Of a DNA stretch of 64,000 nucleotides, positions 27,456 through 43,056 are shown in pieces. The notes under the pieces were generated by a model. That model did no database searches. It had not been told where the DNA came from and worked only from the letters and a program-made list of their open reading frames with translations. The position numbers and the translations under genes were made by a program. This DNA is from Methylomonas subterranea (GTDB lineage Bacteria; Pseudomonadota; Gammaproteobacteria; Methylococcales; Methylomonadaceae): positions 1-64,000 of the forward strand of contig NZ_JANIBJ010000006.1 of the NCBI RefSeq assembly GCF_024505185.1, read 5' to 3'. Each line of letters starts with the position of its first letter. Positions within the stretch are counted from its first letter, which is position 1.

Positions 27456-27465
27456 CTCGATTTCC

Positions 27466-28803
27466 TTATTGCCAGAAGCCCGTGGCTTGCTTGAGTTCCG
27501 CTTCGGCGCGCAAGGCATCGAAACGGGCGTTGATTTGACGGCTGTGGGCCTTGTCGCGGGCGACTTCCGCTTCGATATAACGGGTCACGGTCACCACGCC
27601 GGCCCGCCGTTGTTCGTTGACCAGACGCAGGGCTTCCTCGGCGGAATCCACCGCAATCCCGGCAACTTCGGCGCGGCTCAAGGCGTCCTGTAATTTGAGT
27701 TGAGCGGATTTCAACTGGTTTTCGATACGCAGGCGGGTCTGCCGGGCGCTTTCAAGGGCGGCGGTCAACTCATGCTCGGCTTTTTTGATGTTTTCCTGGG
27801 TGGCGAAGCCGGAAAATATGTCCACTTCCACCATCACGCCGGCCGTGACGTTATCGCGATTGGCGCTGTAGGCCAGATCCTTGCTGTCGGAGCCGTAGCT
27901 GACAAAAGCATCCGCCCTGGGTAGATGGGCGGCTTGGGCCATCTTGACTTTTTGTTCGGCCATGGCCACCCGCTTTTCGGCGGCCATCAACTCGGGGTGG
28001 CGCGCCAGGGCCTGACCGAGCAAGTCGTCGAAACTGGCCGGGGTGTCCGGTAAGGCGGTCGGCCGGGCCGAATCGATCGGAAAACTTTCGCCAGCGCCGA
28101 GACCGAGCAGGGTTTTCAACATGCTTTGCGCCATTTCGATGGCGTTGGCCGCCTGAATTTCGGCATCCCTGGCTTCGGCCAATTGCACTTCCAGCGACAA
28201 CACGTCGGACTTCAGTACGGTTCCGGCATCGAAGCGAATTTTCGATTGGGCAAGCTCGCTTTGCACCGCTTCAATCGAACGCCGGCTGATGGCGTGTGCT
28301 TCCATGGCCGCCAGCTCGCCGTAATAGGCCGCGGTGACGTTGTTGAGCAGTTGATTGCGGGTGGCGGATTTTTCATATTCGGAGGTTTCCACGCCCAATT
28401 CGGCCGCCTGCTTGCCGTAGTAATCCCGGCCGCCGCGAAACAAGGAATAACTGGCGGTCACTTGCGGACGGTAATTGTCGACGCCGCCCGGGTGATTGAA
28501 ATCGCTGCCGGTAAAACTGAGACGCCGTTGCGCAATGATCATGGCAAAGGCCTGCGCCGGGTTATCGCTGTGCAGATACGATAGGCTGGCCTTTATTTGA
28601 GGGTAAAAGTTCGCCAAGGCTTCACCCAATTGGGCATTGGCCTGATCGATGCGGGCCTGCATGATGCCTAGCTCGGGGTTATTGGCCAATGCCGTATCCA
28701 TGGCCTGTTCCAGGGTATGCGGGCTTGGTCCGGAATCGGCGCGGACCGGATTAACCACCAGCATTAACGCGAACGGTATTTGCCAAAAGTGTTTGTGTCT
28801 CAT
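27466..28803 (-). CDS. TolC-family outer-membrane channel protein
   Basis: The 445-residue protein has a signal peptide (MRHKHFWQIPFALMLVVNPVRA) and two repeats of the outer-membrane efflux domain. The first repeat opens TLEQAMDTALANNPELGI (about 31), and the second DLLGQALARHPELMAAEKRV (about 253). The long alanine/glutamine-rich helices continue to the end. It is the first gene of the minus-strand tolC-MFP-RND operon, so the promoter should lie in 28804-29103. Confidence 0.92.
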   Translation of the reverse strand: MRHKHFWQIPFALMLVVNPVRADSGPSPHTLEQAMDTALANNPELGIMQARIDQANAQLGEALANFYPQIKASLSYLHSDNPAQAFAMIIAQRRLSFTGSDFNHPGGVDNYRPQVTASYSLFRGGRDYYGKQAAELGVETSEYEKSATRNQLLNNVTAAYYGELAAMEAHAISRRSIEAVQSELAQSKIRFDAGTVLKSDVLSLEVQLAEARDAEIQAANAIEMAQSMLKTLLGLGAGESFPIDSARPTALPDTPASFDDLLGQALARHPELMAAEKRVAMAEQKVKMAQAAHLPRADAFVSYGSDSKDLAYSANRDNVTAGVMVEVDIFSGFATQENIKKAEHELTAALESARQTRLRIENQLKSAQLKLQDALSRAEVAGIAVDSAEEALRLVNEQRRAGVVTVTRYIEAEVARDKAHSRQINARFDALRAEAELKQATGFWQ

Positions 28804-28865
28804 GAAAAAATCCGAATTCAGTTTGAACGGGTAATTTGTAACTATTCAGCGCTGGTGACGTGTGG

Positions 28866-28895
28866 GTCGGATGCGCTTCGCTTATCCGGCCTACG
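28866..28895. repeat. Short REP-like palindromic element
   Basis: GTCGGATGCGCTTCGCTTATCCGGCCTACG has arms CGGAT (28868-28872) and ATCCG (28884-28888) and the general look of enterobacterial REP elements, which also pair GGATGCG with TTATCC. Only one copy is seen in this window. Confidence 0.4.
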
Positions 28896-28950
28896 TTTGT
28901 TTTACGTTGTTTTGACCGAATAATAATTACGGTAATTAAAGTCATGGTAG

Positions 28951-29003
28951 GAGCGACGCATAGTCGCGATTCGCAAGGCCATCATCGCGACTATGCGTCT
29001 CTC
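28951..29003. repeat. 20-base near-perfect inverted repeat between sqr and the efflux operon
   Basis: GAGCGACGCATAGTCGCGAT (28951-28970) is mirrored at 28984-29003 with a single mismatch, around a 13-base spacer. The preceding GGTAG and the form of the arms recall REP sequences of other proteobacteria. It lies within the roughly 300-base gene-free interval 28804-29103 between the sqr stop and the tolC-like start, which otherwise shows the REP-like element and no gene. No T-run follows, so it is more a mobile repeat or mRNA-end hairpin than a canonical terminator. Confidence 0.6.
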
Positions 29004-29103
29004 CAACGAGACTGTCTTGCATTTGCCGGGGCGATGCGCTCATTACTCTCGGATTAAAGACAGCGGCGCGTGTGCCGCGACTTCACCGCTGTTTCGCCCT
29101 GTT

Positions 29104-30375
29104 TTAGCCCTTGAGCCGCATAATGCCGAACATTTTTAAGGTCAGTTTTTCGTAATACGGCTCGCTGATGCCCTTGCGGACTTTACGCATGAAGTATTTT
29201 TCGTAGCCTATTTTGGCCAAATGCACCCATTTACCTTTGGAAGCCCATTGCACATTGCGCGGCGGAATCTGCGGCATGGCCAGGAAGGCTACGCCCGAGT
29301 CGCCGAAATCCGCCAGACACAAAGCATTCCAGGTACCTTTGTCCTTCGGTTGTTTACCGTCCAGTTCGGCGCGAATGTTGTGCGCGGTGGCGGTAACCAT
29401 GGACTCTATCATGTAGCCGGTTTTGGGCACACCGGTGGGAACCGGGGTTTGCTCCAAGGGCGGAATGGCAATGCAGACCCCGATGGAATAAATGTTTTTA
29501 AAGGTGGGGTTGCGCTGATGCTCGTCCACGATGACGAAACCGCGCGGATTGACCAATTTATCGATTCCAAACAAAGCATCCACGCCCTTGAAAGCCGGCA
29601 GTATCATGCTGTGCTTGAACGGCAGTTCGTGTTTTTTCTTTTCCTGGCCGTTTTCGTCGACCTCGGTGACATACATCATGCCGGCTTCGATTTTGTCGAT
29701 TTTGGCATTGCAAATCCAGTTGATGCTTTTATTGCGCAGTTCGCTTTCCAGCATGCCCTTGGTGTCGCCGACGCCGCCCAGGCCCAAATGGCCGATATAA
29801 GGTTCCGAGGTGACATAGGTCATTTTGACTTTGTCGCGAATTTTGCGTTGGCGCAGATCGGTTTCGGCAATGAACATGTATTCATAAGCCGGGCCGAAGC
29901 AGGAAGCACCCTGGGCCGCGCCGACAATGATGGGGCCCGGATCTTCAACGAATTTATCCCAAAACTCGCCCGATTCGCCGGCGTGATCGACATGGCACAC
30001 CGATTGGGTGTGGCCGTCCGGACCCAGGCCCGGTACTTCGTCGAAGGCCAGCTTGGGGCCGGTGGCTATGATCAGGAAATCGTAAGCGACCCGCGAGCCG
30101 TCGGCCAGTTCGAGCTGATTGTCTTCCGGGTGAAAGCGCGTGACTTTTTGCTGGATGAAGCCGATATTCTTTTTCTGGAACATCGGCGCCAGTTCCACCT
30201 TGATGTCTTCCGGTTTGCGCCAGTTGACCGCTACCCAGGGGTTGGACGGCACGAAGTGAAAAGTCGGGGTATCGGCGATCACCACGACCTCGTCTTCCTT
30301 GCGAGCGTTTTCCTTCATTTCCAAGGCCATTGGTATACCGCCTATGCCGGCCCCCACGATTACTATTTTTGCCAT
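29104..30375 (-). CDS. sqr: Sulfide:quinone oxidoreductase
   Basis: SQR is a peripheral membrane flavoprotein that oxidises sulfide to zero-valent sulfur and reduces quinone. The 423-residue protein has an N-terminal FAD fold (IVIVGAGIGGIP), a second dinucleotide segment, and three cysteines at 127 (SVCHVDH), 159 (GASCFGPAYE) and 301 (SIGVCIAIP). These correspond to the redox-active and auxiliary cysteines of characterised SQRs (128, 160 and 356 in Acidithiobacillus). The C-terminal amphipathic helices fit membrane attachment. It is the last gene of a run that includes cytochrome bd and a persulfide dioxygenase, so electrons from sulfide could go directly to that oxidase. Confidence 0.92.
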   Translation of the reverse strand: MAKIVIVGAGIGGIPMALEMKENARKEDEVVVIADTPTFHFVPSNPWVAVNWRKPEDIKVELAPMFQKKNIGFIQQKVTRFHPEDNQLELADGSRVAYDFLIIATGPKLAFDEVPGLGPDGHTQSVCHVDHAGESGEFWDKFVEDPGPIIVGAAQGASCFGPAYEYMFIAETDLRQRKIRDKVKMTYVTSEPYIGHLGLGGVGDTKGMLESELRNKSINWICNAKIDKIEAGMMYVTEVDENGQEKKKHELPFKHSMILPAFKGVDALFGIDKLVNPRGFVIVDEHQRNPTFKNIYSIGVCIAIPPLEQTPVPTGVPKTGYMIESMVTATAHNIRAELDGKQPKDKGTWNALCLADFGDSGVAFLAMPQIPPRNVQWASKGKWVHLAKIGYEKYFMRKVRKGISEPYYEKLTLKMFGIMRLKG

Positions 30376-30417
30376 GTGACTACTCCTAATTGATTGATAG
30401 ATATTTTTTTGCCGGTG

Positions 30418-30630
30418 TTACCGGCAAGTTTCTTTTATGCCCAATTTTTTCAGAATGATTTCCAGCGGACAGAATCGGGTAAAACCGCTTTGAAACAAAT
30501 TGGCGCCGACAAAGGCGGTAAACCAAAGCCAGTTGCCGGAGTGGAACAGTGGACTGCCTTCCACGCCCAAGCTCAGAGACAGCAGGATAAAAAAGCCCGC
30601 CACAATTCTGACGATGCGTTCCGTGCTCAT
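30418..30630 (-). CDS. DUF2892/YgaP-type small membrane protein
   Basis: The 70-residue protein starts MSTERIVRIVAGFF and has two hydrophobic segments. The second carries GFTRFCPLEIILKKLG, the conserved signature of the YgaP membrane domain, which in other bacteria is fused to rhodanese (a sulfur transferase). Here the rhodanese part is absent. Its start overlaps the cydX stop (ATGA), and sqr follows 42 bases later, so it is probably translated with the bd oxidase. A link to sulfur metabolism is inference from this context. Confidence 0.85.
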   Translation of the reverse strand: MSTERIVRIVAGFFILLSLSLGVEGSPLFHSGNWLWFTAFVGANLFQSGFTRFCPLEIILKKLGIKETCR

Positions 30631-30782
30631 GACAGCCTCTCCTTGCCGCGTTGCGCCAAACTCTCGCAGGATTGATCGATACCGTGGTGGTCGATGTCGC
30701 AGACCGATTCCAGCCACATGGCGTTGATGATGGCGAAGGACGCCGCGAAACCGACGCCGAGTATCCAAGCGAAATACCACAT
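30627..30782 (-). CDS. cydX: Cytochrome bd accessory subunit CydX
   Basis: The 51-residue protein begins MWYFAWILGVGFAASFAIIN and continues AMWLE. This is the CydX/YbgT signature, a single membrane helix that stabilises the haems of cytochrome bd. It lies 11 bases after cydB and overlaps the DUF2892 gene by four bases. The extended tail (DIDHHGIDQSCE) is longer than in E. coli CydX (37 residues). Confidence 0.93.
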   Translation of the reverse strand: MWYFAWILGVGFAASFAIINAMWLESVCDIDHHGIDQSCESLAQRGKERLS

Positions 30783-30793
30783 GATGTGTCTCC

Positions 30794-31933
30794 TCAGTAA
30801 AGTGTGTGAGTGTCTTTCAAGACGCTGGCTTCGGTGACGCTGCCCCAGATGATTTTGTAGACCCAACGGGTATACAGCAGCACGATGGGCAGGAACACCA
30901 CGGTAATCCAGAAAGCCAGCAGCATGGTTGAGTGACTGGAACTGGCGTCCCACAGCGTCAGGCTGGAGCGTGGATCGGTCGCAGAAATCAGCAGGAAGGG
31001 AAACAAGCCGAAGCCGACCGTCAGGGCAATCCCGGCTATGCCCAGGCTGCTGAACATAAAGGCTCCCATCCTGGATTCGCCCTTGCCCAACCACCAGGCC
31101 AAGGCCAGACCGGCAAATCCGGCCACCGGCGCCAGCCACATCCAGGCATGCGCCATGAAATGCCCGAACCAACCGGCGCCGTTGCCGATCACGGTTTTAT
31201 TCAGCGGGTTGGACGGCGCATCGTTAGCCGCCATTTGGGTTATTTCCGGACGCTCGATGCCGACAAACACCCACAGCGTTGCCGCCGCCAGCGCGAGCAA
31301 CAGCATGGGGCCCAGCGCTTCGACGGCCAGTACGGCCCTGTCGTGAATCACGCCCTCGCTGCGCCATTTCAGGAACAAGGCGCCGTGAAAGGTGGTCAGC
31401 AACAAGCCGGTCACCCCGCACAGCAAGGCAAAGGGACTCAACAAGGCCCGGAACGAGCCGTCGTAGAAAGCTCTTAAATCCTGGTCGAGATGAAACGGCA
31501 GTCCCAGGATCAAATTTCCGACCAGCACGCCGAGTAATACCGGCGGCAGGCTTCCGCCCAAAAACAGGCACCAATCCCAGGTATTGCGCCAGCGCGGGTC
31601 TTCGATCTTGCCGCGGTAATCGAAACCGGCCGGCCGAAAGAACAGCGAGAACAACACCAGCAGCATGGCCGCGTAAAGTCCGGAAAACAGCGTGGCGTAA
31701 ACCGCCGGCCAGATGGCGAATATCGCCCCGCCCAACAGAATCAGCCAGACCTGATTGCCTTCCCAGGTGGCGCCGACGGTGTTGATGATGACCCGCCGCT
31801 CGATATCGTTGCGGCCCACGAAGGGCAATAGAGTGCCGACGCCGAAATCGAAGCCCTCGGTCAAGGCAAAAGCGATGCCGACGACGCCGATAAACAGCCA
31901 CCAAATGACGCGTATGGTTTCATAATCGAACAT
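30794..31933 (-). CDS. cydB: Cytochrome bd quinol oxidase subunit II
   Basis: The 379-residue integral membrane subunit starts MFDYETIRVIWWLFIGVVG and has the family motif EGFDFGVGTLLPF, about nine helices and the later conserved WEGNQVWL. It pairs with CydA, here separated from it by one gene. It lacks haem ligands of its own in this family and is needed for assembly and structure of the oxidase. It lies 11 bases before cydX. Confidence 0.95.
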   Translation of the reverse strand: MFDYETIRVIWWLFIGVVGIAFALTEGFDFGVGTLLPFVGRNDIERRVIINTVGATWEGNQVWLILLGGAIFAIWPAVYATLFSGLYAAMLLVLFSLFFRPAGFDYRGKIEDPRWRNTWDWCLFLGGSLPPVLLGVLVGNLILGLPFHLDQDLRAFYDGSFRALLSPFALLCGVTGLLLTTFHGALFLKWRSEGVIHDRAVLAVEALGPMLLLALAAATLWVFVGIERPEITQMAANDAPSNPLNKTVIGNGAGWFGHFMAHAWMWLAPVAGFAGLALAWWLGKGESRMGAFMFSSLGIAGIALTVGFGLFPFLLISATDPRSSLTLWDASSSHSTMLLAFWITVVFLPIVLLYTRWVYKIIWGSVTEASVLKDTHTLY

Positions 31934-31936
31934 GGG

Positions 31937-32515
31937 TTACTCCTTGCCTTGTGTGGATTGCGGCATCTGCCGGGACTGTTTGTGCGGGTGATGATGCTTA
32001 TGGCCCTTGTGTTCGCAATTCATAGGCTGGCCGCCGACCGCATGGTGGGCATGGTCGCTGAGCTGAGCATTGAAGAAACGGTGGATCGCATCGACCAGCG
32101 CGCTGTCTTCGGCCGAATACTCGATTTCGGCGCCGTTCGGCAGGTCGCGGTAGGCGAATCGCACCGCGCCATTCGCGCTGGCCAGTTCCGCCAAGCCGGG
32201 CATATCGTCGCCATGGATGCGGCGCTGCTTGGAAAAGTCGCCTTGTTTGAAGCGCTCGCTAATGTCCGCCAGATGCTGGCGTATCAAGCCAATTTGTTCG
32301 CTATCGCCGGCATCCTTGGCAATCACTTGCTGAATGCCGCCATGCGCGGTTTTATCGAAGATATGTTGAGTCTTTTCCAAATGAAACGGCATCACACGGC
32401 TGCCGCGCTCGGCGACATCGTGCAAGCGTTGCTCGCTGGCCGGCGCTTGCGCGTAAACCGTGCCCACCGAGGCGCCTATCAGTAAGGCCAAAACAGATTT
32501 GTGCATAAAGTTCAT
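31937..32515 (-). CDS. Secreted His-rich protein inserted between cydA and cydB
   Basis: I start it at ATG 32515, preceded by AGGAAA; the frame is open further upstream but would read into non-homologous sequence. The 192-residue product has a signal peptide (about residues 1-22, ending AYAQ-like) and a periplasmic body with MPFHLEKTQHIF and HGGIQQVIAKD. The tail is histidine-rich (HKGHKHHHPHKQ). I recall related methanotroph proteins carrying the database label 'aspartate carbamoyltransferase', but none of that enzyme's motifs is visible, so I do not use it. A role in metal or haem supply to the oxidase is inference. Confidence 0.7.
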   Translation of the reverse strand: MNFMHKSVLALLIGASVGTVYAQAPASEQRLHDVAERGSRVMPFHLEKTQHIFDKTAHGGIQQVIAKDAGDSEQIGLIRQHLADISERFKQGDFSKQRRIHGDDMPGLAELASANGAVRFAYRDLPNGAEIEYSAEDSALVDAIHRFFNAQLSDHAHHAVGGQPMNCEHKGHKHHHPHKQSRQMPQSTQGKE

Positions 32516-32531
32516 GGAGTTTTCCTGGCGA

Positions 32532-34085
32532 TTAGTGGGCGGAACGCGGTTCGAAGCAGTAGCGGCCGGTATGCAGGCTGCTGGGCCCGAGCCGCACATA
32601 CTTCAACATCAGATACATTTCGATGATCAGCAGCACGGTGTAAAACAGGGCAAAACCGCCGATACTGAACCACAGCTGGTCGGCGCTGAGGCTGGACACG
32701 CTCATGTGGGTCGGTAATACGCCGGAGATGGTCCAGGGTTGGCGGCCGACTTCGGCCACGAACCAGCCGGTTTCGGCGGCGATCCAGGGCAGGGGTATGC
32801 ACCATACCGCCATGCGTAGCAACCAGCGCTTCTGGTCGGCAACCCGGGTGGCGCAGTAATAAAAGGTCATGCCGAAGATGAACAACATGGTGAAACCGCA
32901 GGCGACCATGATGCGAAAGGTCCAGAACAAGGGCGCGACCTTGGGAATGGTGTCGTTGGCGGCCTTGGCTATCATGTCTTGATTCGCGTCCACCACCTTG
33001 TCGGTATATTTTTTCAACAACAGACCATAGCCCAAATCGGCTTTATGCGCTTCGAAAGCCGGTTTGGCGCTCAGGTCGCCGGCCCGCAGTTTCTGCAGAT
33101 TGTCGTAAGCCAGCATGCCGCTTTTGATGCGTTCTACGCTTTCTTCGCGCAAGTCTTTCAAGCCCTTGACGTCTTCGTCTATGGAGCGGGTGGCAATCAA
33201 ACCCAGTACGTAGGGGATTTTGACGGCGTAATCGGTTTTCCGGTTTTCCTGATCGGGGAAGCCGATCACCGTAAAGCTGGCCGGCGCCGGGTGGGTTTCC
33301 CATTCCGATTCGATGGCGGCCAGCTTGATTTTTTGCGTCTCGCCAGAGGTGTAACCGCTTTCGTCGCCGAGCACGATCACCGACAGTACCGACGCCAGAC
33401 CGAACGCCGAGGCAATCGAGAAAGAACGCCGGGCGAAACCGATGTCGCGTTTGTTCAGCAAATACCAGGAGCTGATGCCGAGCACGAACATCGAACCGGT
33501 GACATAACCCGCCGCCACGGTATGCACGAACTTGACCTGGGCCACCGGGTTGAAGAAAACATCGGCGAAACTGGTCATTTCCATGCGCAGGGTTTCGTAA
33601 TTGAATTCGGCGCCGACCGGATGTTGCATCCAGCCGTTGGCGATCAAAATCCACAGGGCCGACACGCTGGTGCCGATCGCCAGCAACCAGGTCACCAACA
33701 GATGTTGTACCTTGCTGAGTCTGTCCCAGCCGAAGAAGAACAGGCCGACGAAGGTCGATTCCAGGAAAAACGCCATCCAGCCTTCGCTGGCCAGCAAGGG
33801 CCCGAAGATGTCGCCGACGTAATGCGAATAGTAGGCCCAGTTGGTGCCGAACTGGAATTCCAGCGTCAGGCCGGTGGTCACCCCCATCGCGAAATTGATG
33901 CCGAACAACTTGCCCCAGAATTTGACCATGTCCTTGTAGACTTCGCGCCCGGTCATTACATAGACCGATTCCATGATGCCGAGGATGAAGGTCATGCCCA
34001 GAGTCAGCGGCACGAATAAAAAGTGATACAGCGCGGTCAGACCGAACTGCATGCGGGACAGCATGACAATATCTTCACCGAACAT
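32532..34085 (-). CDS. cydA: Cytochrome bd quinol oxidase subunit I
   Basis: I start it at ATG 34085, which has AGGAGCC just upstream; the longer frame adds unrelated residues. At 517 residues it matches E. coli CydA (522). [20 protein letters not shown] holds the haem histidine region, [14 protein letters not shown] is the quinol-site signature, and a long Q-loop lies near residues 250-345. That size puts it in the long-Q-loop group. It takes quinol electrons and reduces oxygen with high affinity. bd oxidases are known for tolerating sulfide and cyanide, which fits the neighbouring sulfide genes. Confidence 0.95.
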
Positions 34086-34317
34086 GGGAAGGCTCCTGGC
34101 TTGCTTGCGAGGAAAAGTCGGGATTGCCGGATTGCGGCGCGGCCGGCAAGGCAAAATGCCCGGCTATATCCGGTTTGGCGGTGGGTTTATCCAGCCAGCG
34201 AAAAATCAGAAACCAGAGGCCGATCAACAACAGGATTTTGATCAGCATGGCAATGCCTATCTCCCAACGCAGTAGGCTGGGTTTAGGCAGGGTCGGCTGC
34301 ATGGGCGCGTGCTGCAT
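34075..34317 (-). CDS. cydP: Small cytochrome oxidase subunit CydP
   Basis: The 80-residue protein has one membrane helix (about residues 25-43, [17 protein letters not shown]) and a proline/alanine-rich tail. It overlaps the cydA start by 11 bases, the arrangement of the putative oxidase subunit CydP upstream of cydA in many proteobacteria. The family name is recognised from size, position and helix; direct function is poorly known. Confidence 0.78.
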
Positions 34318-34350
34318 GGCGTTATCTCCTTTAATCCGATAAAAGTAGTT

Positions 34351-35391
34351 TTAATGGGCCGGCGGCGCGGTTTGGGTTTGCCCGCTCATTGCCGGCATGT
34401 GTCCGCCCTTGAGCAGCATCAGGCCGCGTTGTGCCATCATTAGCCCCATGGCGATTACCAGCAGGCCGGAAACCCTAACCATCTGCCGCATGGCGCCATG
34501 CGACAGCAAGCTGGCGAATAAGCCGAATCCCAATAACGGTAACAAGGTGCCCAGGCCGAACAGCAACAAAATCATGCCGCCCTGGAAGGGATCACCGCTG
34601 CCGGCCGCCATGATGTACATGGCTTGCAGAGGCCCGCACCCCAGCAGCAACCCGGTCAATAAGCCGGTGCGCAGAGCGCTGCGTCGGGGCCGGCGGAATT
34701 CGTCGGCTACCACCCGGTCGACGGTTTTGGGCATGCGCAGGGTAAAGCGGCGTAGAAGCGCAAACACGTTGAGCATTTTCAGGCCGTATATCAGCAGAAA
34801 AACGCTTGCGGCCAGTGCCACGCCGCCGCGCATTTGCGGGGTAATGGCGATGGCGGCCCCCAGCAAGCCAAAACCCGCGCCCAACAGCGTGTAAGACAGG
34901 GTCTTACCGAAGGCGTAACTCAGATGTGCCAGCAACTGTCTAGCCTTGGTCTGGGTCGGATCGGTATAGCCGACCACAAAACCGCCGCACATGCCGATGC
35001 AGTGAAAGCCGGTCAGAAAGCCTATGCCCAGCAGTACGGCATGGCTCATGTGCGGCTTGATTTGTTGCATTACGCCCGGCATCAGGCCCTTGCCCCAGAA
35101 CGCCACGCCGCCCACCAGGATCAATAAGACCAGAAAAAGCAGTGTTCGCTTGATTTTGTCAGCCGTCGATGTCGAAACGGTCGAGACAGCATAGCCTTTG
35201 CTTTCTATGCAAGCGCGGATGCGCGCTTCGTCGACGACCGCCTCATCAAATTCGACATCCAGCGCGGCATTTATATAACTGACTTTAACGTCGCGCACCC
35301 CCGGCAAGGCACTAACCGCCTGGCTGAGGATGTCCTCGCAACCCGGGCAATGCATGCCGCCGATCGATAAATGTCTGCTGGTGATTGACAT
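34351..35391 (-). CDS. HMA domain fused to TauE/SafE-like membrane protein
   Basis: The 346-residue protein starts with a heavy-metal-associated domain containing GGMHCPGCE (cysteines 15 and 18). Seven or so membrane helices with GFHCIGMCGGF (histidine 130, cysteines 131 and 135) follow. This is the arrangement of the 'urease accessory UreH-like/TauE-SafE' family often found near cytochrome oxidase and copper genes. It probably moves or reduces a metal, likely copper, for oxidase assembly or detoxification. It lies between the multicopper oxidase and cydP with gaps of 37 and 33 bases. Confidence 0.82.
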   Translation of the reverse strand: MSITSRHLSIGGMHCPGCEDILSQAVSALPGVRDVKVSYINAALDVEFDEAVVDEARIRACIESKGYAVSTVSTSTADKIKRTLLFLVLLILVGGVAFWGKGLMPGVMQQIKPHMSHAVLLGIGFLTGFHCIGMCGGFVVGYTDPTQTKARQLLAHLSYAFGKTLSYTLLGAGFGLLGAAIAITPQMRGGVALAASVFLLIYGLKMLNVFALLRRFTLRMPKTVDRVVADEFRRPRRSALRTGLLTGLLLGCGPLQAMYIMAAGSGDPFQGGMILLLFGLGTLLPLLGFGLFASLLSHGAMRQMVRVSGLLVIAMGLMMAQRGLMLLKGGHMPAMSGQTQTAPPAH

Positions 35392-35428
35392 ATCCTGCTC
35401 CCTGATAATTGGCGCCTGGAACGGGCTC

Positions 35429-37261
35429 TCATTCCACCAAAAAGTCGCGCATCATGCCCATGTCCTCATGCTCCAGATTATGGCAGTGGTACATGAACAA
35501 GCCTTTAAAATCCTGGAACGGCTTGATGATCTTGACGCTTTCGCCGGGCATCACCAATACCGTGTCTTTCCAGCCGCCATTGATGAAGCCATCCTTGACG
35601 GTGGCATAATCATCGCTTTCGCCCATGCCGATGTTGCGGCCGAGAATCTGGAAATATTGGCCGTGCAGGTGAATGGGATGGGCCATCGACATCATCATGC
35701 CCATGCCGCCCATGCCACCCATTTTATGACCGCCCTCGCCGCTATCGTTGCCGTGGCGCATGCCCATTCCCATGCCTCCCATGCGATGACCGCCTTCGCC
35801 CTGAGCTTTATCGCCATCGTGATTCATACCACCCATCATGCCCATGCGTCCCATTTTGTGTCCGCCGGACTCGGATGGCTTATCACCACCGTGACCGCCG
35901 CCGTGGGCATGGAAAATCTCCATCAATTGCACGGTGTTGAGCGGGATACGTTCGCTGGGCAGAACGTCGTTGTAGGCGTAGGGCCGGCCGTTCAGAACCA
36001 TTTTCATCGGCCCTTCGGAAATTCCGATGGGTACAGGTTTGTTGGGGTTGGCGGTGTCGGCCAGGGTGTAGTGTTTGATGGTGGACAAGCGGTTCGGCAG
36101 CTTGGGACTGTCGCTAACGCTTTTGGTCACGCGCACCGTGAAAATCGGGTAATCGCTACCGACCGGCAAGTTACTGCCGTGCATGCCCATGCCCATGCGA
36201 TGGCCGCCGCCACCGTGCCGCCGATCGTCGCCGCCGTGTTTTCCCGTCATCATGCGTTCGGCCATTTTCGGCAATACGCCGGAAAAAGAACGGCTGCGCA
36301 AAACAAGCTGGGAGCCGACTTTGCGCCCGCTGAAATCCGCCCACACATCCAGACGTTCGCCGGGGGCCAGCATCACGTAGGGTTTGTTGACGGGGGTTTC
36401 CAGCAAGCCGCCATCGGTACCGATCACCGTGACCGGTGACTTGTCGTCCCAGGCCAGCTTGTATATGCGCGCCGTTGAGCCGTTGAGGACGCGGAAGCGA
36501 TAAGCCCGACTGGCGACGTCGAGCTGAAAATTGGCGCGACCGTTGACCAGAATGCGGTCGCCGTAAAAGCCCATCATGCGGTCGTGCATATGACGCACAT
36601 ATTGCAATTGGTTGTTGGCGTCGAATAGCCGGTCCTGAATCACGATCGGTACTTCGTATTCGCCGGCCGGCAACTCCAGACGGCGTTCTTCGTCGTCATT
36701 GACCAATATGGCTCCGGCCAGGCCGTGATAGACCTGTTTGGCGGTGGTATTGTGCGGATGCGGGTGGTAAATGTTCATGCTGGCGCGGTTGAGCATTTCG
36801 AACTCGTAGACCAGCGTTTCACCCTTGTCGATCGCATAAAGCGGATGGCCGTCCTGTTCCGCCGGCACATGCAGGCCGTGCCAGTGGGTGACGGTCGGTT
36901 CGGTTAGTTGATTATGCAGATTGATACGGATCTTCTGGCCTTTTTCAAAGCGCAGGACCGGCCCGAGATAGGAATCGGGAATTTCGGTCAACGTGTTGGC
37001 CGGGCCCTTAACCAGCTTGGCAAAATACTGCTGTACGCGAGTCGGTTGACCGGGCAGTATAGACACTGTCGACGGTTTACAAATCAAGTCGATTTCGACA
37101 TCGGGATGAAAATTGGCCGAGGCTTTTTTAGGCGTCATTTTCGGCATTTCGCCCATCCCTTCCATGGCTCGCAGCCAGCCCGGCAATCCCGCATAGGCTA
37201 ATAATCCAGCACCGGTTTGCGCAAAAAAGCGCCGGCGTGAAGGGTTGATTGAGTATTTCAT
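35429..37261 (-). CDS. Periplasmic multicopper oxidase with Met/His-rich insertions
   Basis: I start it at ATG 37261, where MKYSINPSRRRFFAQTG gives a twin-arginine signal and GAGGAGA is the ribosome site. The 610-residue protein contains all four copper-binding motifs: HWHGLH and HPHPH in the first cupredoxin, then HPIHLHG and HCHNLEHEDMGM at the C-terminus (type 1 and trinuclear sites). Two low-complexity insertions are notable. One near residue 350 is rich in GGHRMGM; the other, about 455-530, is built from GGHKMG-MGM units directly before HPIHLHG. CueO has a Met-rich helix there, so this probably oxidises Cu(I). Confidence 0.88.
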   Translation of the reverse strand: MKYSINPSRRRFFAQTGAGLLAYAGLPGWLRAMEGMGEMPKMTPKKASANFHPDVEIDLICKPSTVSILPGQPTRVQQYFAKLVKGPANTLTEIPDSYLGPVLRFEKGQKIRINLHNQLTEPTVTHWHGLHVPAEQDGHPLYAIDKGETLVYEFEMLNRASMNIYHPHPHNTTAKQVYHGLAGAILVNDDEERRLELPAGEYEVPIVIQDRLFDANNQLQYVRHMHDRMMGFYGDRILVNGRANFQLDVASRAYRFRVLNGSTARIYKLAWDDKSPVTVIGTDGGLLETPVNKPYVMLAPGERLDVWADFSGRKVGSQLVLRSRSFSGVLPKMAERMMTGKHGGDDRRHGGGGHRMGMGMHGSNLPVGSDYPIFTVRVTKSVSDSPKLPNRLSTIKHYTLADTANPNKPVPIGISEGPMKMVLNGRPYAYNDVLPSERIPLNTVQLMEIFHAHGGGHGGDKPSESGGHKMGRMGMMGGMNHDGDKAQGEGGHRMGGMGMGMRHGNDSGEGGHKMGGMGGMGMMMSMAHPIHLHGQYFQILGRNIGMGESDDYATVKDGFINGGWKDTVLVMPGESVKIIKPFQDFKGLFMYHCHNLEHEDMGMMRDFLVE

Positions 37262-37428
37262 AATGTCTCCTCGACCTTGACAGGTTCTTTTTGTAATCAT
37301 TTTTGAAAATCCCGTTTGTGCGGTATTTTCGTCCCCCAACGGTTACTACTCCCTGATGATGGTCAAGCTTGTTAGCCTGACGCAGATCGTCGGTCTCCGC
37401 GCGACGATGTAAACGGTTTGACTTAAGT

Positions 37429-37857
37429 TCAGTGGATCTCCGATTCCGACGGCGGTTTGCGGATGACCCGGGTGGCAATCGCCAACAGTAAAATCGCCAC
37501 GGATACCCATAACATGCCCATGCCGGCCTCGTGATGCGCCTGCACATCGGCAATCACCAAGCGGGCCAGCGCGGTGATGGCGATGTAAATCAGACAGCGC
37601 ACCGGCATGGCGTTGGTCTTGAAATAAATCCCCACCATCGCACCCAGTTCAAGATAGATGAACAACAATAAAATGTCGCCGATGGTGGCGTGGCCTTGCC
37701 CCATCATGCCGATATAGGCGAGCACGCCGGACCAGACCACGCTGGCGCCGATTACAAACAGGGCCAGGTAATGAAAAATCTCTATCAGCAGGTTGCCCAT
37801 GGTGTCGACTCGGGTTTTCCAACGTCGATGCAGGTTGGCAAAATGTTCGCTATCCAT
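37429..37857 (-). CDS. psiE: PsiE-family inner-membrane protein
   Basis: The 142-residue protein has four hydrophobic segments and matches the PsiE group (phosphate-starvation-inducible in E. coli), including LLLFIYLELGAMVGIYF and a short polar N-terminus. It lies 3 bases after the TauE gene and 167 bases before the multicopper oxidase, with which it shares orientation. Its biochemical role is unknown. The position suggests membership of the sulfide/copper block rather than a phosphate regulon, which is inference. Confidence 0.8.
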   Translation of the reverse strand: MDSEHFANLHRRWKTRVDTMGNLLIEIFHYLALFVIGASVVWSGVLAYIGMMGQGHATIGDILLLFIYLELGAMVGIYFKTNAMPVRCLIYIAITALARLVIADVQAHHEAGMGMLWVSVAILLLAIATRVIRKPPSESEIH

Positions 37858-37860
37858 GGC

Positions 37861-38787
37861 TTAGCCCTTTGAAACTTTATTAAGTGTGAACACGGCGGCG
37901 TCCGCCTTGTGAACCCAGTGACCGATGCGCAGTAGCAGTAACAGCAGCAGCAAGCCGACCAGCAGGCGTCCGGCGTCTGCGGCATTCGTCAGCCACTGTT
38001 GCAGCGAATCGAGCATTTGCGCGCTGACGGCTTGAGATAGCACATAAGCGGCAACCAGCGTCACCATGATCCCGAAGGCTTTCCGCAATAGAGCGGGTTT
38101 AACGTAGGCCGAGAGCCAGGCTCCAATCGCGCTGCCGAAAATGGCGCCGGCGCCGACCAGCCCGGTCAATTCCCAATCCAGCGCCACGTATTGGCTGTAA
38201 CCGCTTAGACCCGCCACGGCGTTCATGGCAATGATCAACAACGAGGTGCCGACCGCGCCCTGCATCGGCAGGCCGACCAGCAGGGTCAATGCCGGCACGA
38301 TCAAAAAACCGCCGCCCACTCCGACCATGCCGGTCAAGCCGCCGACGAAAAAACCGTCGAACAGTACGCGGAAAAACGGCACCCGCAGCGGACATACCGA
38401 TGTGGGGTTGACGGCTAAGTCGGTTGGGGTTTCGTCGCGTTTTCCGCGCAGCATCAGCAGACCGGTGGACAGGCTGACCAAGCCGAACAGCGCCATCAAA
38501 ATGTCGTCGGCAAAGTGCGCGGCCAGACGGCCGCCGCCGAATGCGCCGACCATGCCGGCCAGTCCGAAGAACAAGCCGCTTTTCCAGCACACAAAACCGC
38601 GGCGAGCGTGGGAAATCAATGCCATCAAACTGGAGATGCCCACCACCACGAAGGATGTCACGATGGCTTGTTTCGGCTCTATGTGCAGTACATAGACCAG
38701 CATGGGCACGGTCAGGATCGAGCCGCCGCCGCCGAGCAGGCCCAGCAGCAAGCCGATGACGATAGCCAGGCCGAGGGTTAAAAACAT
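37861..38787 (-). CDS. TauE/SafE-family sulfite or sulfonate exporter
   Basis: The 308-residue protein has about eight hydrophobic segments and the family's GLLGGGGSILTVPMLVY near the N-terminus. A repeat of that motif, GLTGMVGVGGGFLIVPAL, occurs near residue 157. Members export sulfite or related organosulfur anions. It lies 14 bases after the persulfide dioxygenase gene, whose product is sulfite, so removal of sulfite from the cell is the simplest reading. The substrate has not been tested. Confidence 0.85.
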   Translation of the reverse strand: MFLTLGLAIVIGLLLGLLGGGGSILTVPMLVYVLHIEPKQAIVTSFVVVGISSLMALISHARRGFVCWKSGLFFGLAGMVGAFGGGRLAAHFADDILMALFGLVSLSTGLLMLRGKRDETPTDLAVNPTSVCPLRVPFFRVLFDGFFVGGLTGMVGVGGGFLIVPALTLLVGLPMQGAVGTSLLIIAMNAVAGLSGYSQYVALDWELTGLVGAGAIFGSAIGAWLSAYVKPALLRKAFGIMVTLVAAYVLSQAVSAQMLDSLQQWLTNAADAGRLLVGLLLLLLLLRIGHWVHKADAAVFTLNKVSKG

Positions 38788-38801
38788 TCGCCTAAGCTCG
38801 C

Positions 38802-39500
38802 CTATTCCGCGGCCAAGCCGCAGGATTGGTTGGCGGGCAGGGCTTGGTCGATAAATTTCGGGTAGGCCAGTTTGAGGTCTTGCATGGTGGCAATAAATTC
38901 GTCACGCGATTTACCTCCGCCCAGGCGGGCATTTTTGACCATCTCCTGCTTGATGGTCGAGACCGTGTTGCCTTGATAATCGTGGCCTGGGTACACCAGG
39001 GTATCCGGCGGCAGGATGAACAATTTGCCGGTGATGCTATCGTACAGTTGGCCGGCGTCGCCCTGTTGGAAGTCGGTGCGGCCGCTGCCGCCGATCAACA
39101 AGGCATCGCCGGTAAACACCCGGTCGGCCATCGCATAACTGACGCAGCCGGCGGTATGGCCGGGAGTATGCAGCACTGCAAACTCCAGCTCGCCGACCTG
39201 CAACAGCACGCCGTCGGTGACCAGTAAATCGGCGCACATCGCGCCGGCATCGCGATGCACGATACTTTTACTCCCTAATGTATTGCGAAGTAAACCGGCT
39301 CCGGTAATATGATCGGCGTGAACGTGAGTCTCCAGGGTGTAGATCAGTTTCAAGTTCAGGGCTTGCAGCAGTTGAATATAGCCGTCGACTTCCGAGGCCA
39401 CCGGATCGATCAATACCGCGCGGCGGCTGCGTTCGCAGCCCAATAAATAGCTGTAGGTCGAGGTTTCGGGTTCGAACAATTGGCGAAAGATCATGGTCAT
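38802..39500 (-). CDS. Persulfide dioxygenase (ETHE1/Blh type metallo-beta-lactamase fold)
   Basis: The 232-residue enzyme oxidises glutathione persulfide to sulfite. It has the single-iron ligands of ETHE1: THVHADH (histidines 59 and 61, aspartate 63), HTPGHTAG (histidine 115), GDALLIGGSGRTDF (aspartate 132) and PGHDY (histidine 173). Glyoxalase II uses two metals; the GRTDFQQGD segment is the persulfide-dioxygenase variant. Two in-frame ATGs stand at the start. ATG 39494 is the better spaced one behind GGAG (39501-39506). It is first in the minus-strand block and has a sigma-54 promoter. Confidence 0.9.
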   Translation of the reverse strand: MTMIFRQLFEPETSTYSYLLGCERSRRAVLIDPVASEVDGYIQLLQALNLKLIYTLETHVHADHITGAGLLRNTLGSKSIVHRDAGAMCADLLVTDGVLLQVGELEFAVLHTPGHTAGCVSYAMADRVFTGDALLIGGSGRTDFQQGDAGQLYDSITGKLFILPPDTLVYPGHDYQGNTVSTIKQEMVKNARLGGGKSRDEFIATMQDLKLAYPKFIDQALPANQSCGLAAE

Positions 39501-39541
39501 ACTCCATCAAGAACTAAATCAGTATAGTCTGATAAAGTTAT

Positions 39542-39557
39542 ATCAAGTATCGTGCCA
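39542..39557 (-). promoter_or_regulatory. Sigma-54 (RpoN) promoter for the persulfide dioxygenase operon
   Basis: On the minus strand TGGCACGATACTTGAT matches the -24/-12 consensus TGGCAC-N5-TTGC with correct GG-N10 spacing. Only the -12 C is changed to A. Transcription would start near 39530, about 30 bases before the dioxygenase start codon. The adjacent divergent gene encodes a sigma-54 activator. Confidence 0.8.
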
Positions 39558-39611
39558 AGACTCTCCAGCGCTGCCGCCGCTGGATTTCAAGCCCTGCAGG
39601 CCGGCTTGTTG

Positions 39612-39668
39612 TGTTTCATGTTGAAACATTGAAACACTTGTGCCATAGTGTGAAACATATTTGAAACA
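39612..39668. promoter_or_regulatory. TGAAACA repeat cluster, likely activator binding site
   Basis: TGTTTCA-TGT-TGAAACA (39612-39628) is a perfect inverted repeat with a 3-base spacer. TGAAACA recurs at 39630-39636, 39651-39657 and 39662-39668. The cluster lies 55-126 bases upstream of the sigma-54 promoter and ends 13 bases before the regulator's start codon, so it is well placed for activation of the operon and self-repression of the regulator. Confidence 0.7.
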
Positions 39669-39680
39669 AATCCCCCCGCC

Positions 39681-41072
39681 ATGAGCCAATCTTCCCCCTT
39701 TTTTAACCGCTGGTTGAGCAGGATAGGTCCCGATCAGGTCTTGACCATACTCACCGATCTGCTGGATGCCGGCGCCGTGTTTGCGGTGGATGCCGGTGGT
39801 AAAGTGTTGTTCTGGAGTAAAGGGGCGGAAAAACTGTTCGGCCTGACGGCGGAAGCCGTTCTGGGTAAACCCTGCGCGGAAACGCTGGGTTGCGAGGAAG
39901 GTCAAGACCCTTGCGGTCTGGCCGAGCTGGGTTCGATCAAGGCGCAAATAGTCAATCCCAAGCGCGCCAACGGCGAGCGCGTCACCTGCTACCGTACCGC
40001 CCGCGCCTTCTTCGACGCCAATGGAGAATTCGCCGGCGCGCTGGAGTTTCTGCGGCCGCAAGCGGCAAGCGAAACGGCGCTCGGCATACGGGAAAACAGC
40101 GAAAGTTTTCACGGTATTTTGACCCGCGACCCCATCATGCTGGAGGCGATCAAAATCATCCGCAATGTCGCGGAAACCGAAGCCACCGTATTGATACGCG
40201 GTGAATCGGGTACCGGAAAGGAACTGGTGGCCAGGGCCTTACACCAGGAAAGCCCGCGTCATCAGCGGCCTTTTCTGGCAATCAACTGCGCCGCGCTGTC
40301 TCCAAGCCTGTTGGAAAGCGAACTGTTCGGCCACGTCAAGGGGGCATTTACCGGGGCGCTGCGGCAGCATGACGGCTTGTTTCAGCGCGCGCATGGCGGC
40401 ACGCTGTTTCTGGACGAAGTCGCGGAATTGCCCTTGGAATTGCAAGCCAAACTGCTGAGGGTTTTGCAGGAACAAAGCTTTACCCCGGTGGGCGGCGACG
40501 CAATCCTCAACGTCGACGTCAGAATTATCGCCGCCACCCATCGTTCGTTGCGCGAAGAAACCAAAGCGGGACGTTTTCGGGAAGACTTGATGTATCGGTT
40601 ACGGGTGGTGCCGGTGTTTCTGCCGCCGCTGAGGGAAAGGCGGTTGGATGTAAACCTGCTGCTCTGGCATAGCATCGGCCTGCACAACCTTCACGGCAGG
40701 CGGCATGTCGACAGTATCGCCCCGGATGCCATGCGGCGTTTGCTCGATTACAGTTGGCCCGGCAATGTCAGGGAACTGATCAACGTTGTCGAATACGCCT
40801 TTGCGGTGGGGCGCGGCAACGAATTGAGTCTGGATGATTTGCCGCCGGAATTTCGCGAAGTAAAGCCGGCCGCCATTCCCGAAACCCAAGCGGCGGCCGG
40901 ACATAAAACCTTTCGCGGCGAGGCGGACTTGATCCGCGAAGCCTTGCAAATCACGGGCGGCAATCTGGAGGCCGCCGCTAGTTATGCCGGCATGAGCCGA
41001 GCTACATTCTGGAGAAAGCGAAAAAAATATAACATCGATCCGGTTGCGGATTTTTCCGGCGCTGACGGATAG
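39681..41072 (+). CDS. Sigma-54-dependent activator, FisR-like, with cysteine-bearing PAS domain
   Basis: The 463-residue protein has an N-terminal PAS domain (about residues 22-130), a AAA+ sigma-54 activator module (about 145-385) and a Fis-type helix-turn-helix (about 425-450, [19 protein letters not shown]). The module keeps Walker A GESGTGKE, the sigma-54-contact loop GAFTGA and GTLFLDE. Cysteines 65, 71, 78 and 103 lie in the PAS region; three cysteines in the sensor of Cupriavidus FisR form a polysulfide switch. It diverges from the persulfide dioxygenase gene, the known FisR-pdo-sqr layout. Sulfide sensing is inference. Confidence 0.85.
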
Positions 41073-41184
41073 GCCGAGGTTGACAGCGCCGTCCAACTGG
41101 AATATTAGTTATTAATAATATGTGTTGTCGGGATCAATGGAATCCCGCCGGCGAAATTTGAATCCTTGGCCTGGGCTGAAATTT

Positions 41185-43056
41185 ATGAAAACCTCTCGTT
41201 TGATCGGCCTGCTGGCTTTGGTAACCGCTTTAGTCTGCCGGGCCGAAATCCCCTTGGCGCCGGGTCATGCCGTCTTGCCGTATCAATTGGCCGCGCCCGC
41301 CAGCTATTCGCTGCCTGTGGTCGGAGCCGCCGGCGACGGCGAGATTTTGACCGGCGACAACCAGCCCAAGCGTCTGCATGAGCTGATGGGCGACAAACTG
41401 GTGTTGTTGAGTTTTATTTACGCCACGTGCAGCGATGTAAACGGTTGCCCGCTGGCGACCCAGGTACTGCATAAAATCAGCCGGCAATTGCAAAAACAGC
41501 CGGAATTGGCGGCCAAGCTGCGCCTGTTGACCCTGAGTTTCAATCCGGCCCACGATACGCCGGACATGATGCGCCAGTACGGTTCCGGCTTTAAAACCGG
41601 CGAATTCGATTGGCGGTTTTTGACTACCCGCGACGAACAAACCCTGCAACCCATACTGGACGCCTATCAGCAAAACGTGCAAAAAATTTATGACGAACAA
41701 GGCCAATTTACCGGTACTTTTTCGCATTTGCTGCGGGTTTATCTGATCGATACCGACAAAAATATTCGCAATATCTACAACGTGGACTTTCTGCATGCCG
41801 ACACGGTCATTAACGACGTGAAAACGCTGTTGGCGGCACCTAATGAGTCGGCGGCCGCGCGGCCGGCAGTCGCGGAAAATCTATATCAAGCCGGTGATAA
41901 CAAACAGAACTATCAGCGGGCCGATTACCACACCCGCTCGCTGGCGCTGGAGCATAGGCGAGGCCAGCCGGCCAAACTGATCGAGTTTGTAAAAAAACCG
42001 CCGCTGGGGCTGCCGAAACTGCCGGAGCCGCCGGATAACCCCGTTACCGCCGCCAAAATCGATTTGGGCCGTAAATTGTTTTACGACCGCCGGTTGTCGT
42101 TCAACAATACCTTTTCCTGCGCGATTTGCCATATTCCCGAGCAGGGTTTCAGCAGCAACGAAATGGCGACCGCCGTCGGCGTGGAAGGCCGTAGCGTGCG
42201 GCGTAACAGTCCGTCGCTATACAACGTCGCTTATGCGCAACTGCTGTTTCACGACGGCCGGGAAAACAGCCTGGAGCAACAGGCGTGGGGGCCGCTGCTG
42301 GCGCATAACGAAATGGGCAATCCGTCCATCGGCCATGTGGTGGATAAAATCAAGGCCGGCGCGGACTACCGGGGCCTGTTCGAAAAGGCCTTTGGAAAAG
42401 GCCCTGGCATGGAAACCATCGGTCAGGCCCTGGCCAGTTACCAACGGGCGTTAAATTCCGCCGATTCGCCGTTCGACCGCTGGTATTTCGGTAAACAAAG
42501 CCAAGCCCTGAGCGATGCCGCCCGGCGCGGATTCGAGCTGTTTACCGGCAAGGCCGCCTGCGGCGGTTGCCATGGCATAGGCGAAAAGTCCGCCTTGTTT
42601 ACCGACCAAAAACGCCATAACACCGGCATCGGCTATGCCGAATCCATGCTAAGAGTGCCGGACAAGCAGCGGGTGCAAGTGGCGCCGGGCGTGTTTGTCG
42701 ATGTGGACGCTAAAAGCTTGCAAGGCGTCGCCGAAGCCAGAGCCAACGACCTGGGTTATTACGAAATCAGCCAAAATCCGGCCGACCGCTGGGCATACAA
42801 AACGCCGTCGCTGCGTAACGTGGCGCTCAGCGCGCCCTACATGCACAACGGCAGCCTTTCCAGTCTGAAGGATGTGGTGGAGTTTTATAACCGGGGCGGT
42901 ATCGCCAACGAAAATCTGTCGCCGCTGATCAAGCCCCTGGGGCTTTCGGACGCGGAAATCGACGATCTGGTGGCATTTTTACAGGCGCTGACCGGCGGTA
43001 ATGTCGAAGCTTTGGTTTCCGATGCCTTCGCCGCGCCGGTGGGAGATAGCCGATAA
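41185..43056 (+). CDS. SCO1/SenC domain fused to MauG-like diheme cytochrome c peroxidase
   Basis: I start it at ATG 41185, giving a signal peptide (MKTSRLIGLLALVTALVCRA); the open frame upstream adds basic sequence without homology. Residues about 30-220 form a SCO-like thioredoxin fold with cysteines 82 and 88 (TCSDVNGC, five residues apart instead of the canonical three) and histidine 181. Residues about 285-610 are a MauG/CcpA domain with haem motifs CAICH (312-316) and CGGCH (459-463). The protein should be periplasmic. Copper or redox transfer to haem is inference; SCO is normally an oxidase copper chaperone. Confidence 0.85.
   Translation: MKTSRLIGLLALVTALVCRAEIPLAPGHAVLPYQLAAPASYSLPVVGAAGDGEILTGDNQPKRLHELMGDKLVLLSFIYATCSDVNGCPLATQVLHKISRQLQKQPELAAKLRLLTLSFNPAHDTPDMMRQYGSGFKTGEFDWRFLTTRDEQTLQPILDAYQQNVQKIYDEQGQFTGTFSHLLRVYLIDTDKNIRNIYNVDFLHADTVINDVKTLLAAPNESAAARPAVAENLYQAGDNKQNYQRADYHTRSLALEHRRGQPAKLIEFVKKPPLGLPKLPEPPDNPVTAAKIDLGRKLFYDRRLSFNNTFSCAICHIPEQGFSSNEMATAVGVEGRSVRRNSPSLYNVAYAQLLFHDGRENSLEQQAWGPLLAHNEMGNPSIGHVVDKIKAGADYRGLFEKAFGKGPGMETIGQALASYQRALNSADSPFDRWYFGKQSQALSDAARRGFELFTGKAACGGCHGIGEKSALFTDQKRHNTGIGYAESMLRVPDKQRVQVAPGVFVDVDAKSLQGVAEARANDLGYYEISQNPADRWAYKTPSLRNVALSAPYMHNGSLSSLKDVVEFYNRGGIANENLSPLIKPLGLSDAEIDDLVAFLQALTGGNVEALVSDAFAAPVGDSR

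Follow-up and report, generated by a model that had tools for sequence, protein, structure and literature searches.

A FisR-linked gene block joins sulfide oxidation genes and a cytochrome bd-I oxidase in Methylomonas subterranea

Introduction

Why should genes for sulfide oxidation, a bd-type terminal oxidase and copper-related proteins lie together in one gene run beside a sigma-54 activator? The question is raised by a 64,000-nucleotide stretch of Methylomonas subterranea DNA (contig NZ_JANIBJ010000006.1, positions 1 to 64,000; hereafter the window), in which genes for persulfide dioxygenase (pdo) and sulfide:quinone oxidoreductase (SQR, sqr) enclose a cytochrome bd gene set, with a gene for a FisR-like activator diverging from pdo. 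Operons of FisR, pdo and sqr are already known, as are sulfide-tolerant bd oxidases; the new part is their fusion in one block. The block is real, conserved and modular, a FisR-type sulfide block that incorporates the sulfide-tolerant kind of oxidase. Judging from sequence, we put the probability that it acts as a FisR- and sigma-54-controlled unit of sulfide defence and respiration at about 75%. Such a regulon would equip the cell at once to remove sulfide and to respire with a sulfide-proof oxidase, under a defined promoter and regulator.

Gene content of the block

Twelve open reading frames (ORFs) run along the minus strand from the persulfide dioxygenase at 39500 to SQR at 29104 (Table 1). 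An ORF check upheld the preliminary description of this DNA, which had reported such a run with a single gap above 50 bp: neighbouring genes lie at most 42 bp apart, except for the 167 bp that precede the multicopper oxidase (37262–37428). Families were assigned with Pfam, NCBIfam and PDB sequences; the profile and PDB matches agree with the families named earlier, and the PsiE-family and YgaP-like proteins are newly named here.

SQR aligns along its whole length, residues 2–422 of 423, with the solved SQR 3sz0, which we take to be the Acidithiobacillus ferrooxidans enzyme. Its Cys127, Cys159 and Cys353, presumably the catalytic cysteines, are invariant among 11 aligned sequences. The oxidase is a cytochrome bd-I: CydA and CydB exceed the Pfam cut-offs, CydB also exceeds TIGR00203, and CydX, scored without its first seven residues, passes TIGR02106 barely (32.8 bits, cut-off 31.6). 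Neither CydA nor CydB meets the narrower PRK-type NCBIfam cut-offs, and the CydP candidate falls short of its own (20.9 bits, with 29.6 required). The genome (4.41 Mb in 104 contigs) holds a second cydA with 39% identity to that of the block as well as three COX1-family matches, so the cell probably has several terminal oxidases, of which the block bd-I is one. The gene for a periplasmic-looking protein (ppl) with several invariant histidines sits between those of CydA and CydB in several genera. Its structure model is fair (pLDDT 80), and its best Foldseek hit (E 0.026, probability 0.12) was rejected as a fold match. For PsiE, ppl, the multicopper oxidase and the HMA protein, a role is inferred only from the company of their genes.

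The divergent fisR encodes sensor, AAA+ and HTH domains, and rpoN is present in the genome. In an alignment of 51 FisR rows, repeats included, the sensor-domain residues Cys65, Cys71 and Cys78 are retained in 32, 32 and 31 of the 35 distinct sequences, in a numbering that is not aligned to Cys53 and Cys64 of Cupriavidus FisR, between which a tetrasulfide forms according to excerpts of PMC9495516.

Table 1. Features of the block, its control region and the adjoining efflux genes in the window
Feature	Position	Strand	Basis or remark
fisR, FisR-like sigma-54 activator	39681-41072	+	Pfam: PAS, AAA+, HTH_8; GAFTGA at residue 221
Candidate FisR upstream activator sites, four GTTTCA and one TGAAAC	39613-39668	-	motif match
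Sigma-54-type site TGGCACGATACTTGAT	39542-39557	-	begins 57 bp before pdo; sequence match only
Dyad ATCAGACTATACTGAT, candidate second operator	39518-39533	-	at expected transcription start
pdo, persulfide dioxygenase (ETHE1-like)	38802-39500	-	4ysb E 2.3e-77; ETHE1 4chl E 1.2e-63
tauE/safE, TauE/SafE exporter family	37861-38787	-	PF01925; sulfite export inferred
psiE, PsiE-family membrane protein	37429-37857	-	PF06146
mco, multicopper oxidase, Met/His-rich	35429-37261	-	Pfam, NCBIfam, PDB sequences
hmaD, HMA + DsbD_2 membrane protein (HMA-SafE)	34351-35391	-	Pfam
cydP-like small subunit	34075-34317	-	NF045611 20.9 bits, below cut-off
cydA, bd-I type	32532-34085	-	Pfam; cytochrome bd-I 6rko E 1.2e-227
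ppl, periplasmic-looking His-rich protein between cydA and cydB	31937-32515	-	no Pfam match
cydB	30794-31933	-	TIGR00203, 408.8 bits
cydX	30627-30782	-	TIGR02106 32.8 bits, cut-off 31.6
ygaP, YgaP-like transmembrane protein	30418-30630	-	PF11127, scanned inside longer ORF 30418-30780
sqr, SQR	29104-30375	-	3sz0 E 6.6e-153
OEP-MFP-RND efflux system	23065-28803 (27466-28803, 26337-27518, 23065-26340)	-	constant neighbour of this SQR clade

The promoter and its conservation

All 30 intergenic regions between fisR and a block gene (25 facing pdo, four ygaP and one sqr) contain the sigma-54 pattern, which starts 52–65 bp before pdo at the 25 pdo-first loci. The pattern TGGCAYN5TTGAT occurs at 14 places in the genome, its reversed control at one. 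Upstream, the window carries the palindrome TGTTTCAN3TGAAACA (39612–39628), and a GTTTCA/TGAAAC palindrome is found in 22 of the 30 intergenics; among the eight that lack it, seven retain five half-sites, variants included, and one retains three. The form TGTTTCAN3TGAAAC has only two places in the genome, the second of which was rejected as a further FisR target because it sits inside an ORF. Domains and site pattern together bear out the divergent FisR-like activator and sigma-54-type site that had been proposed for the block head.

The strongest point for conservation of this putative promoter comes from relatives in which the block is split. There, detached cydP-A-B-X-ygaP-sqr runs have their own TGGCACGCAAATTGAT site and a palindrome 81–82 bp upstream, in seven of seven genomes. 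We also compared 23 block heads that do not adjoin fisR. At least three half-sites within 70 bp, a density reached by 1.5% of random 600-bp segments, are present at 14 of the 16 heads with FisR in the genome vs one of the seven without (Fisher p 0.0017); heads at contig ends (L050, L079, L080, L092 and L099–L101) and L048 were omitted. In G004, a genome that is 99% complete, no FisR was found at E 1e-100, and both promoter elements are missing at pdo.

Several observations weigh against this picture. The −12 element reads TTGAT rather than the usual TTGCW in 27 Methylomonas intergenics, with TTGCT in the three others, and the sigma-54, palindrome and dyad patterns were all picked after the sequences had been seen. 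The seven genomes with detached runs are close relatives. Relatives among the 23 heads are likewise not independent, and within genus g28 alone the link between FisR and half-sites shrinks to five of six vs one of five (p 0.08). Individual genomes depart from the trend as well: G180 has FisR and one half-site, G116 has FisR and two half-sites in 360 bp, G199 (92% complete) has half-sites and no FisR that we found, the omitted L048 runs counter, and G034, which is outside the 23, has FisR and no half-sites in the 480 bp before cydA. Absence of FisR here means none at E 1e-100, and G085 was scored as lacking it though locus L083 shows a fisR fragment. Finally, the first sensor cysteine is absent from five of the 51 FisR rows, and sqr itself lies in the run with fisR at only eight of 31 FisR loci (the window and seven of the 30 others), leaving 23 without it.

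A conserved but modular block

Those loci come from a search of 37 genomes of the genus, 30 of which were positive for FisR at E 1e-115 or better, giving 31 loci with the window included. At 25 of them (the window and 24 of the 30 others) pdo diverges from fisR. The run with fisR contains tauE at 25 loci, mco at 22, hmaD, psiE and ppl at 20 each, and cydA at 16. Two genomes (G021, G147) place fisR beside ygaP-sqr or sqr alone, and in four (G014, G008, G022, G015) no block gene adjoins it.

The preliminary description had named an order confined to this strain as grounds for giving up the idea of a unit. Synteny comparison recovers the identical 12-gene order twice besides the window, at L078 with fisR and at L044, where fisR is located elsewhere. 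In seven genomes the block is divided into fisR-pdo-tauE-mco-hmaD(-psiE)-ppl and, apart from it, cydP-A-B-X-ygaP-sqr. Other genera have psiE(-hmaD)-cydP-A-ppl-B-X-ygaP-sqr runs (L081, L093, L094, L097), and another family has cydA-ppl-cydB-cydX-sqr (L048). The block is thus modular, with ppl, psiE, mco and hmaD each present at some loci and missing from others. The earlier view of a sulfide unit that includes the bd oxidase under a FisR/sigma-54-type promoter stands as to the fisR-pdo linkage and the sites that recur on the split-off part, and has to give way as to a fixed membership. The grouping of the genes is probably no accident, because the switch sequence persists in relatives whose block is split; the split blocks also amount to a natural cross-species experiment on how FisR sites function.

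Two further arrangements were seen in the relatives. An ORF that resembles a methyltransferase, by eye a thiopurine methyltransferase, is located upstream of detached cyd-sqr runs and also near the L042 block (L039, L040, L043, L042, L073–L076). In Methylobacter relatives (L154, L158, L162) an sqr of a second clade diverges from a different cydA-cydB-cydX set, of which only cydA was seen at L102; this is apparently a separate pairing.

Proposed working and comparison with known systems

We propose that sulfide entering the cell gives rise to persulfide, which would oxidise cysteines in the sensor domain of FisR. From the GTTTCA sites to which it is bound, FisR would then activate sigma-54 polymerase at the head promoter, from which the block would presumably be read as one transcript. 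SQR would oxidise sulfide and pass the electrons to quinone, PDO would convert persulfide to sulfite, and TauE would export the sulfite. Once haem-copper oxidases are blocked, CydABX, which is not expected to be poisoned by sulfide, could pass quinol electrons on to oxygen. Handling of periplasmic copper that sulfide has perturbed is the probable task of the copper proteins, and this is the least certain step. In this scheme pdo, sqr and tauE are explained by the known FisR pathway (PMC7315123), and a bd-I oxidase under a FisR promoter fits because bd respiration resists sulfide, as stated in excerpts of PMC7315123 and PMC10205796.

The block resembles known systems in parts. Its CydA, CydB and CydX are of the bd-I type, like the sulfide-tolerant cytochrome bd of Escherichia coli; the window oxidase differs in sharing what looks like a FisR-type promoter, whereas we know of no link between the E. 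coli oxidase and sulfide-oxidation genes. Cupriavidus pinatubonensis reportedly has a FisR-regulated pdo-sqr operon. The window shares with it and with Acinetobacter baumannii (A1S_1707–1711) a divergent sigma-54 activator, pdo in first place and sqr in the operon, and with A. baumannii also tauE, but adds the bd oxidase set, psiE, the multicopper oxidase, the HMA protein and the YgaP-like protein. The FisR of A. baumannii switches on pdo1-sqr-tauE, and a copper transporter gene and cydAB elsewhere are likewise induced by sulfide; according to the same excerpts (PMC7315123), cydAB is at A1S_1433–1434, apart from the operon, and the FisR lacks the sensor cysteine. Methylacidiphilum fumariolicum SolV is likewise a methanotroph that raises SQR alongside a sulfide-insensitive oxidase, but its type III SQR and ba3 oxidase come from separate loci, as described in part of PMC10205796, whereas the window SQR is nearest to 3sz0 and 3hyv in the PDB and bd-I is in the same run. 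In the portions of PMC12810054 and PMC11830464 that were available, sqr and cydAB of methanotrophs are named separately and no shared block is mentioned. We found no open-licence literature joining Methylomonas, sulfide and FisR, which is weak evidence.

Transcription units, low oxygen and copper

The interior of the block bears on whether it is read as one transcript. Alternatively, the head promoter may drive only pdo-tauE-psiE, with mco-hmaD and cydP-to-sqr under promoters of their own. Of the 13 relatives compared, 11 have a gap of 132–171 bp where the window has its 167 bp before mco, and an exact ATYAG-N6-CTRAT dyad occurs in four of 14 such gaps, the window's included. A sigma-54-like site with half-sites precedes cydP in G015, and in seven genomes the cydP-to-sqr part starts from its own promoter-like site. 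However, other relatives have just 22–86 bp before mco, and the interior of the window block has no second palindrome. A consensus scan of 28500–41200 gave no sigma-70-like site for the minus strand and one for the plus strand (shuffles mean 7.0), along with 20 terminator-like sites, vs 16.3 in shuffles. We regard several transcripts as a real possibility, though not as the expected arrangement.

A FisR-controlled sulfide unit must also be weighed against a microaerobic respiration set for which low oxygen is the signal, with the sulfide genes riding along since sulfide and low oxygen co-occur. FisR carries a PAS domain, whose fold is capable of oxygen or redox sensing, and CRP/FNR-like ORFs (by eye) lie beside the related blocks L045 and L081. 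Bd oxidases serve low-oxygen respiration, as noted in excerpts of PMC12810054. However, the sensor cysteines are mostly conserved, and at minimal loci (L047, L077, L086, L087) fisR is accompanied by ygaP-sqr or sqr but by no oxidase, although L086 and L087 lack the first sensor cysteine. Moreover, we know of no role for pdo, tauE or sqr in low-oxygen respiration as such, and we consider this explanation unlikely.

That the copper genes are the core of a copper-stress island, with the sulfide genes handling copper–sulfur chemistry, is very improbable: methanotrophs do handle much copper, and the block includes a multicopper oxidase and an HMA protein, but blocks that retain fisR, pdo and cydA may lose mco (L237), hmaD (L223) or both (L082), and the adjoining RND system is closest to drug pumps, not to the heavy-metal family.

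A dyad at the head promoter as a possible second operator

Counted from the start of the sigma-54 site, the perfect dyad at the block head begins 24 bp downstream. With at most one mismatch, ATYAG-N6-CTRAT is found in 13 of 30 fisR intergenics (14 matches vs 1.5 in shuffled sequence), in genera g28 and g33 at six of 11 block heads, in 16 of 18 regions upstream of second-clade, unlinked sqr genes (the genus supplies 15 of these 18) and in four of 14 pre-mco gaps. Its density is 1.8–3.6 per kb in these four promoter sets vs 0.14 per kb across whole loci, a 13- to 25-fold difference, with 0.20 for a control pattern. It also occurs before blocks in genomes where FisR was not detected.

These data raise the prospect of two sulfide sensors on one promoter, with FisR activating from the GTTTCA sites and probably a SqrR/BigR-type regulator repressing from the dyad. 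Such a regulator is possible, and we advance the two-sensor arrangement tentatively, as a doubtful extension. Sulfide oxidation, bd respiration and perhaps the SQR-linked efflux pump would then be under the joint control of both sensors, because the dyad also precedes the unlinked second-clade sqr genes and blocks without detected FisR. YgaV is paired with YgaP, and the YgaP-like protein beside sqr and the dyad at the promoter recall SqrR/BigR/YgaV systems; the window block differs in having no repressor gene, and its dyad is unmatched to a published operator. Counting against an operator, the dyad has seven places in the genome vs five for its reversed control and so is not rare alone; a full match at fixed offset is seen in six of the 30 fisR intergenics for a slightly looser pattern and in five for the exact one; and none was present in 700 bp at the detached cydP promoters (0/7). 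The genome's best match to the BigR/SqrR repressor profile scores 68.4 bits, below the cut-off of 155. Our search of open-licence literature for a palindromic BigR (ArsR) operator with sulfide found nothing, again weak evidence.

The 68.4-bit match is a small ArsR-family gene of the genome (G000, contig C13:35882–36142, L245), followed by a rhodanese-like and a SecB-like ORF (the last two by eye). Its product has cysteines in LKILC and KVFC, positioned as in the YgaV peptides given in part of PMC9774250. We left it unassigned as regulator of the dyad because its 3.3-kb locus contains no dyad.

Neighbouring genes

The preliminary description ended the unit at sqr. While sqr does close the 12-gene run, at 35 of 36 loci of this SQR clade it is directly followed, on the same strand and 81–910 bp away, by the outer-membrane protein gene of an RND efflux system; SQR matches with less than 60% coverage and loci with less than 2.5 kb downstream were dropped from this count. 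Among the best 80 named SQR matches, of which 79 were counted, an RND component lies within 9 kb of sqr at nine of 11 loci with identity above 80%, 20 of 25 at 70.5–80% and 20 of 43 at lower identity. By sequence the pump is nearest to multidrug pumps, and we rejected assignment to the heavy-metal family. We found no open-licence literature joining SQR, persulfide and RND efflux in a gene cluster, also weak evidence, and no sigma-54, palindrome or dyad motif in the gaps between sqr and the outer-membrane gene. In the window this gap contains a 24-nt inverted repeat (28947–29007), its arms 13 nt apart, which could either belong to a dispersed repeat or mark the end of transcription.

On the other flank, 49 bp past fisR and on the same strand, lies a gene for a fusion of SCO1/SenC with an MbnH/MauG di-haem peroxidase-like domain (41122–43056, plus strand). 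Among the FisR loci laid out, its only nearby match is at L138 (44% identity over 52%).

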